Origin: Protonemura montana
Taxonomy: Eukaryota; Arthropoda; Insecta; Plecoptera; Nemouridae
NCBI GenBank assembly: GCA_947568835.1
Contig: OX387610.1
Coordinates: 5,620,001 to 5,684,000 of the forward strand
DNA: 64,000 bases
Direction of reading: 5' to 3'
Part shown: positions 713 to 1,196 of the stretch, in pieces
Layout: every line of letters begins with the position of its first letter
How positions within the stretch are numbered: position 1 is the first letter of the stretch
Notes under the pieces: model-generated
The model's database searches: none
What the model was told of the DNA's origin: nothing
The model's input: only the letters and a program-made list of their open reading frames with translations
Made by a program: the position numbers and the translations under genes

Positions 713-905
713 CCCAAACCTTATTAGGATGAAATCTTATTTAAATTGCAAACGCTTGCAATTCGCGGGGTATTTTTAACCGTCTCAAAAATCGATGCCC
801 AAACGGGGACTCGAACCCCGATCTCCACCTATCGCGGGTGTGGCTCTAACCCATTGAGCTATTTGGACACCGGCTTTTTGAGACGATTTTAGTGTATTTG
901 ATGAG
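713..905 (+). mobile_element. tRNA-bearing inverted-arm element, copy 1 (complete core)
   Basis: This short element begins TTAGGATGAAATCTTATTT, then AAACGCTTGCAA, a CGCGGGGTATTTT word and the arm ACCGTCTCAAAAATCGAT. The core is a tRNA-like sequence (796-869), and the second arm (TTTTTGAGACG, then TTTTAGTGTA) is the inverse of the first. The same arms occur at 1037-1196, 24600-24755 and, diverged, 33573-33695, which defines a dispersed family. There is no coding capacity, so any movement would be non-autonomous. A palindromic DNA transposon that captured a tRNA and a tRNA-derived SINE with foldback ends are both possible. That the family exists is seen directly; the mode of mobility is inferred. 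Confidence 0.65.
796..869 (-). pseudogene. tRNA-like core of the inverted-arm element
   Basis: Read on the minus strand, 74 bases fold as a cloverleaf. The acceptor pairs TGTCCAA with TTGGGCA, the D stem is GCTC/GAGC, and the T arm is CGGGG-TTCGAGT-CCCCG with a perfect B box. The anticodon stem has four pairs plus an A-G mismatch, and its seven-base loop is CGCGATA, so the base before the anticodon is G instead of the near-universal T. One base appears extra between the T stem and the acceptor. Because it is flanked by inverted arms and lacks T33, it is more likely a mobile-element core than a working tRNA gene. The polymerase III A and B boxes look usable. Confidence 0.6.
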
Positions 906-1036
906 AATGACAGTTCTCCAAGGAGTAGAACCATGAGGCTGTGAATACTCACAGTCACTCTGATTCTAGTAACGCTATATCACGTCACAACCTGTCAAAC
1001 TCGAATAACTCCAATTTGACGTTGGATTCGTTGCTG

Positions 1037-1196
1037 TATTAGGATGAAATCTTACTTAAATTGCAAACGCTTGCAATGCGCGGGGTATTTTATTATAAAC
1101 AACACTTTAACCGTCTCAAAAATCGATGTCCAAAAATGCATCGATTTTTGAGACGGTCATAGTGTAGTTAATAATAAAATAACTGCCCAAACCTTA
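1037..1196 (+). mobile_element. Inverted-arm element, copy 2 (core almost lost)
   Basis: It has the same left end (TTAGGATGAAATCTTACTT, AAACGCTTGCAATGCGCGGG) and arms as copy 1. The arms ACCGTCTCAAAAATCGATG and CATCGATTTTTGAGACGGT form a near-perfect hairpin. Only about ten bases of the tRNA-like sequence (TGTCCAAAAA) remain at the tip. The right side continues GTGTAGTTAATAATAAAATA and ends at CTGCCCAAACC. It lies about 130 bases after copy 1 in the same orientation. Confidence 0.65.

Follow-up and report, generated by a model that had tools for sequence, protein, structure and literature searches.

A tRNA-bearing, non-coding repeat family of the stonefly Protonemura montana that likely integrates as Penelope-like elements do

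We report that an insertion close to the left end of a 64,000-nucleotide stretch of Protonemura montana DNA (contig OX387610.1, positions 5,620,001 to 5,684,000; hereafter the window) is, by its sequence, one copy of an abundant non-coding mobile family. This family is likely a young, abundant, non-autonomous retroelement that integrates as Penelope-like elements do, and the element probably works like a Penelope element, of which it would be a non-autonomous member. It offers thousands of small footprints in which start sites, target nicks and the meeting place of the cDNAs can be read.

The repeated unit is 331 nt long, non-coding and often found in short tandem runs, with up to 3.3 direct 331-bp units in a row and no open reading frame in the unit. 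Positions within it (u) refer to a real copy of 331 nt, L005:1502-1832 on the minus strand. The genome examined comprises 258,480,905 bases in 34 contigs; our sample, 90 loci around matches (291,006 bases) plus five further stretches that were looked at, is small, partly ascertained and drawn from a single genome, and word counts are valid at the stated mismatch limits. The tail word occurs at 2,862 places in the genome with at most three mismatches (0 for the reversed word), the right arm with A-tract at 4,499, the left arm with the start of the tRNA at 2,685 and the unit-unit junction word at 530. The RNA of the L005 reference unit folds better than 100 of 100 shuffled sequences (z -5.2; opposite strand, z -3.6). 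In this fold the left and right arms form a 20-bp stem that carries the tRNA-like part at its tip, as a first-pass annotation of the window had surmised, and the tail forms a hairpin; the tRNA-like interior is not a cloverleaf there, the cloverleaf coming from the Rfam and ARAGORN models only. Across 39 young units the arms are paired in 96% of cells, against 45-57% when they are slid, and the units have changed too little for covariation, with just one two-sided change in the arms.

The window copy is a single insertion at 724-1182 between the two halves of a 14-bp target duplication (710-723 and 1183-1196; Table 1). Read along the minus strand, which is also the sense of the tRNA, it consists of an inverted segment (1181-1138), a partial unit (1134-1037) and a full unit (1036-722), the last of which shares positions 722-723 with the duplication and is without about 16 bases of arm and A-tract found in the 331-nt reference unit. 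A 55-bp block is repeated at 722-776 and 1037-1091. The word CCGTCTCAAAAATCGAT has 5 matches against 0.23 expected (at most three mismatches), while AAACGCTTGCAA, which sits inside the 55-bp block, does not exceed chance on its own (14 found, 9.7 expected, at up to two mismatches; 16 of 100 shuffles reach 14). A second insertion, at 24603-24748, runs from u280 to u224 in its inverted part and then from u242 to u330 in its direct part. The first-pass annotation had placed arms, end box and cores correctly, as judged from the sequence words, the Rfam and ARAGORN calls of the core, the remnant at 24603-24748 and the full core at 33571-33676. What it listed as copies 1 and 2 is one insertion, the remnant copy it saw at 24600 is real, and its bounds of 713-1196 cut three bases from the left target duplication.

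Table 1. Coordinates of element features in the window, of core-slice arrays in sampled loci and of the parts of the unit (u, unit position)
Feature	Position	Strand	Basis or remark
Window insertion, left target-site duplication CTGCCCAAACCTTA	710..723	no strand	14/14 identical to 1183-1196
Window insertion, right target-site duplication, CTGCCCAAACCTTA again	1183..1196	no strand	
Full unit: body, left arm, tRNA-like part, right arm, tail	722..1036	-	u1-331 at 91%
tRNA-like domain	796..868 (ARAGORN 794-869)	-	Rfam tRNA 48.7 bits; anticodon-loop G33/U37
tRNA-stem left arm, preceding the tRNA in minus-strand sense	875..895	-	sequence; reference-unit fold
48-nt tail with hairpin	722..769	-	hairpin from fold; 3' cDNA start site u331 at 722
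Second unit, 5'-truncated (u234-331)	1037..1134	-	comparison with unit
Inverted segment u239-282 (5' inversion)	1138..1181	+	near-perfect hairpin with 1086-1128
Second insertion, left target-site duplication CAGCATGTTAACTT	24589..24602	no strand	13/14 identical to 24750-24763
Second insertion, right target-site duplication CAGCATGTCAACTT	24750..24763	no strand	read from sequence
Second insertion, inverted segment u224-280	24603..24659	-	
Second insertion, direct segment u242-330 with tail	24660..24748	+	
Old copy, arms and tRNA-like core (u148-254)	33571..33676	+	74.8% to unit, E 3e-17
Old fragment u243-323	2140..2220	-	76.5%
Old fragment u243-287, orientation opposite to 2140-2220	2298..2342	+	77.8%
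Old fragment u256-313	36193..36250	-	72.4%
52-bp tandem arrays inside element copies	L031:2485-3028, L034:914-1331, L060		
Unit: body	u1-143		
Unit: left arm	u144-162		
Unit: tRNA-like part	u168-241		
Unit: right arm	u244-265		
Unit: A-tract	u266-283		
Unit: tail with hairpin	u284-331		

Other repeated sequences were seen in the same material. Matches to 5S rRNA lie at unrelated places, window 14794-14914 (50.9 bits) and L005:679-798 (47.4 bits), and may be dispersed 5S genes or repeats derived from 5S. At window 47667-48146 and 48867-49261 there are tandem repeats whose long open frames read YSLARERRYQHKDCPLHC on one strand and CAGIFSHGLDCSNAGDSP on the opposite strand; similar repeats occur in L081 and L083. 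Minisatellites of period 46-47 lie near element copies (L009:33-825, L031:1-1325, L034:2143-2963).

The window annotation had described a mobile family that is seen losing its tRNA; its mobility is borne out, the loss is not. A foldback element whose tRNA core is progressively deleted could explain why copies with 0, 10, 18 or 74 core bases exist, and L059 does have a small partial deletion within the core (arm spacing 70 instead of 83). In the 90 loci, however, the left member of every arm pair spaced by less than 60 nt (12/12) resembles an inverted right arm more closely than it does the true left arm, from which an inverted right arm differs at 2 of 21 bases, so the pairs contradict deletion in our sample and make it very improbable. 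In the window copies, moreover, the arms of the core-less hairpins run outward into the A-tract, which the true left arm lacks. This A-tract and the closer match to the inverted right arm identify the core-less hairpins as right arm against right arm; their arms are not the two that flank the tRNA, as had been assumed when core-less and full copies were given the same arms. Further against progressive deletion, 119 of 183 left-arm matches, a count that includes inverted right arms, are spaced by 83, as in a full core. Some copies have multiplied a slice of the core instead of losing it, and the core is an old, integral part of the element, as the first reading of the window had it: the older unit L094 (87% identical) retains it, and so does the 75% copy at 33571.

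Inverted segments begin at u275-285 in 41 of 49 inverted insertions, whereas their inner ends differ from copy to copy. Together with the pairs of right arms, this makes a single insertion event with 5' inversion the best account of a core-less copy, in preference to decay of a full one. The tRNA remnant in its loop would be the stretch between the stopping points of two cDNAs. A foldback or MITE-like DNA transposon would likewise present inverted repeats flanked by direct repeats, but its ends and duplications should not vary as the low-u ends and the duplication lengths (10-20 bp over 32 sites) do here. The tandem arrangement of units and the many different lengths of the inverted segments also count against it, and we hold this origin to be extremely improbable.

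Insertions end preferentially at two positions of the unit, u~283 and u331. Among 101 clusters, counted after removal of 15 duplicates and drawn in part by the tail word, which favours tails, 43 combine a u283 end with a u331 end, one has u283 at both ends (L020) and none has u331 at both; 24 run from a 5' end to u331, 18 from a 5' end to u283, and 15 have an end at neither start site. The 30 loci obtained with a tRNA-plus-body query, which is blind to the ends but favours complete units, comprise 11 mixed, 0 same-same, 11 5'-end/u283, 6 5'-end/u331 and 2 other cases. Were the ends chosen freely, the mixed-ends pattern would arise with odds of about 2.5e-12 in the whole set and 4e-4 in the blind set. 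An inverted, head-to-head 5' unit is present in 49 of the 73 oriented insertions, and palindromic junctions are head-to-head only, the 90 loci showing 0 tail-to-tail junctions. In 11 insertions the inverted part extends across the boundary between two units, from which we infer a multimeric or circular template; two of these, L050 and L051, lie about 31 kb apart on contig C1, have identical target duplication and structure, and are probably one duplicated locus.

Low-u ends vary and spread widely. At head-to-head junctions (n=112) they peak in the 3' half of the tRNA-like part, with 47 in u222-241, 10 in u242-261 and 7 in u202-221, and 9 of 46 simple 5' ends also fall in u222-241. Because this peak is broad, we attribute it to a structural obstacle and not to a cut site. 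Cutting by RNase Z was considered as a source of the 5' ends and rejected, there being no peak at u242 and the ends being spread over u222-241.

Target-site duplications, which the window annotation had suggested looking for, are present with a score of at least 10 in 33 of 73 oriented insertions, compared with 3 of 730 mismatched flank pairs, and are 10-20 bp long with a peak at 12-13 bp (16 of 32 sites). At a score of at least 9 they accompany 32 of 49 inverted and 6 of 24 simple copies (Fisher P 0.002), a comparison to be weighted lightly as the simple class includes old fragments and ill-placed boundaries (L046, L060, L061, L069); in loci drawn by the tail word only, the figures are 15 of 20 and 1 of 8. 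At score 9 no duplication is seen in 35 of the 73 oriented insertions, 17 of the 49 inverted ones included. Outside both target nicks (32 sites) stands the same A-rich motif in mirror image, with A at -4 to -2 before the duplication in 60 of 96 cases and T at +2 to +4 after it in 62 of 96, against 37 of 96 on each side in controls; positions adjoining the nick were left out, as they are biased by the way the duplication is delimited. Target and element overlap at both junctions of the 29 best-placed sites, by hand-averaged means of about 2.2 and 3.1 bases, with maxima of 6 and 10 bases (some mismatches included); chance overlap is put, by an uncontrolled estimate, at less than half a base.

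These junctions bear on two alternatives. A tRNA-derived SINE that is mobilized by an ordinary LINE and often undergoes twin priming (5' inversion) at its internal A-tract would share the tRNA-like core, the target duplications, the 5' truncation and the inversion with target microhomology at an A-rich tract, and many intact LINE-type reverse-transcriptase frames are present in the genome. Unlike ordinary SINEs and L1, the present family has no fixed 5' end near a Pol III start, its low-u ends being widely spread, and no poly(A) end; its units stand in tandem, the mirrored motif is the same at both nicks and the two start points are used one each. We regard this alternative as unlikely. Self-priming, in which a single cDNA, made perhaps on an antisense template, doubles back on itself, has been proposed for rotifer Penelopes, and the same head-to-head geometry is given this explanation in the portion of that study drawn on here (PMC3846280). 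It would suit palindromes centred, as ours are, in a self-complementary region, but it gives no reason for the fixed outer end at u~283 or for the rule that the footprints show, one tail end with one tail-less end. The element overlaps its target at both the inverted and the tail end, which, like the mirrored A-rich motif outside both nicks, also speaks against self-priming, and we consider it quite improbable for this family.

In the Penelope-type mechanism that we favour, a Penelope-like reverse transcriptase-endonuclease, supplied in trans, would nick both target strands, and the 3' ends so freed would each serve as primer for reverse transcription within an RNA that has several units or is circular. 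Of the two cDNAs, one would begin at u331 and the other at u~283, and they would meet head-to-head. If the 3' half of the tRNA-like fold, a favoured stop, halted both, a core-less hairpin would result; should one run on, the core would be kept. Where the second strand is not RNA-primed, a simple 5'-truncated copy would be left, often without a recognizable duplication. Against this mechanism stand the single u283/u283 insertion, the 15 of 101 clusters with an end at neither start site, the 17 of 49 inverted insertions that show no duplication at score 9, and the failure of our searches to turn up a hammerhead or a protein-coding partner. Matches between target and element at the start sites also point to annealing.

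The tRNA-like core itself is well recognized but is unlike a working gene. On the minus strand, positions 796-868 score 48.7 bits with the Rfam tRNA model (gathering score 29), and ARAGORN calls the window core tRNA-Ser(CGA), as it does tRNA-Ser, mostly CGA, in 15 of the 16 loci given to it. A working tRNA-Ser has U33, a purine at 37 and a long variable arm, and we reject a functional tRNA-Ser gene here, as the Infernal alignment of the core has G33, U37 and a short variable loop in place of the long arm. In 39 near-complete units, variation outside CpG is 0.052 in the core against 0.024 in the body, due largely to a few subfamily sites, and variation in the tail (0.057) and in the A-tract (0.088) equals or exceeds that of the core. 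The base at u231 breaks a T-stem pair in 22 of the 39 units, and 7 of 39 differ at the A of T-loop position 58 (u226); we make no claim of reverse-transcription errors at modified tRNA bases, since neighbouring and subfamily sites vary too. Within ten bases after the core lies a T5 run, at which Pol III would be expected to stop. The domain may serve as a candidate Pol III promoter, as a processing signal or as a passenger. The window also holds two ordinary-looking tRNA genes, Lys(CTT) at 46461-46533 (+) and Glu(TTC) at 58532-58603 (-), whose scores are well above that of the element's core.

Part of the core has also been amplified. A junction word of a core slice repeated with a 52-bp period occurs at 14,008 places (at most two mismatches; reversed word, 0), and on contig C1, among the 100 perfect places listed, 68 of 72 gaps between within-array neighbours are multiples of 52, with one array spanning 2.7 kb. 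Such arrays lie between the arms in L034 (8 periods) and in L060 (three slices and one full core). The element explains the source both of false tRNA-Ser gene calls and of the 52-bp tRNA-slice arrays in this genome.

An autonomous protein-coding partner was not found among the GIY-YIG match, the scored RVT_1 matches and the inspected flank ORFs. The Pfam GIY-YIG profile gave one match, which resembles the host SLX1 nuclease. The RVT_1 profile gave 1,781 candidates, 150 of which were scored, unsorted by clade; many are intact LINE-type frames. The flanks contain 168 ORFs of at least 105 aa, and among the 70 inspected by eye one has a simple reverse-transcriptase motif. Near one end of contig C11, at about 0.05-0.95 Mb, many of the top-scoring reverse-transcriptase matches are located, several of them within long open frames. 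Rfam searches at permissive E-values of window 600-1320 and four loci returned no hammerhead or other ribozyme, and a motif scan of the unit, which degenerate minimal forms could escape, found no hammerhead core motif. Weak microRNA-family matches on the hairpin, far below gathering scores, were dismissed.

These results bring to mind a Penelope-type retrozyme whose hammerhead has been replaced by a tRNA-like module, joined to a two-handed integration, a combination that we put forward as a doubtful conjecture. The host tRNA machinery (Pol III, RNase P, RNase Z, tRNA ligase) would then stand in for the ribozyme, carrying out transcription, cutting and perhaps circularising, and in the two-handed integration one cDNA would start from each of two sites flanking the tail hairpin. 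The Schistosoma S-alpha repeat has a unit of similar length and a tRNA-type promoter, and carries a hammerhead. Metazoan retrozymes, according to the text consulted (PMC7229834), share with the present family a non-coding, highly self-paired tandem unit of about 300 bp and are thought to be moved in trans, but carry a type I hammerhead, of which we found none.

The likeness to Penelope-like elements extends to many features, as far as excerpts of the published work describe them. Penelopes have an inverted, shorter 5' pLTR, a one-sided tail and partial tandems (PMC3846280), so that partial tandem units and a tail-less inverted 5' unit are common to both. With purified Penelope protein, both strands are cut and extended, and reverse transcription begins at two neighbouring internal sites that delimit the tail (PMC11167929), the steps after cutting and first extension being left unvalidated by that in vitro study in the part available. 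Shared, too, are a one-sided tail bounded by two reverse-transcription start sites with a stem-loop nearby, short target duplications, AT-rich targets and cutting of both strands. The present family differs in being non-coding, in bearing a tRNA-like fold on its hairpin and in the lack of any hammerhead found; published Penelopes often carry one in the pLTR, where it is common though not universal. Its tail is 48 nt long against 31 bp, or 30-40 bp, in the sections of Penelope papers used, and its duplications are mostly 12-13 bp, whereas those of rotifer Penelopes are 8-10 bp or none, self-priming being favoured there for palindromes (PMC3846280, in part). Its start sites show overlaps between target and element, whereas the start site of the Penelope protein is not homologous to the cut DNA (PMC11167929, in part).

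Compared with tRNA-derived SINEs, the family has no fixed 5' end, two start sites and tandem units. With these and with SINE-derived satellites (cf. PMC10702118) it shares a tRNA-derived core and the tandem expansion of part of the element; the part expanded here is a 52-bp slice of the tRNA-like core. Among the titles and abstracts that our search returned, none describes a tRNA within Penelope, pLTR or retrozyme elements. A tRNA-like sequence inside the repeat unit of a non-autonomous retroelement is known from Helenus and other TRIMp3 elements, where it lies in the terminal repeat and is unlikely to be a working tRNA (PMC10886601). As described in the part of that paper used here, these are LTR elements with PBS, PPT and 4-5-bp duplications, where those of the present family are 10-20 bp, and they share none of its Penelope-type traits (PMC10886601). 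The tRNA-like sequence inside a unit of Penelope type would be a counterpart to the tRNA-bearing LTR elements represented by Helenus.
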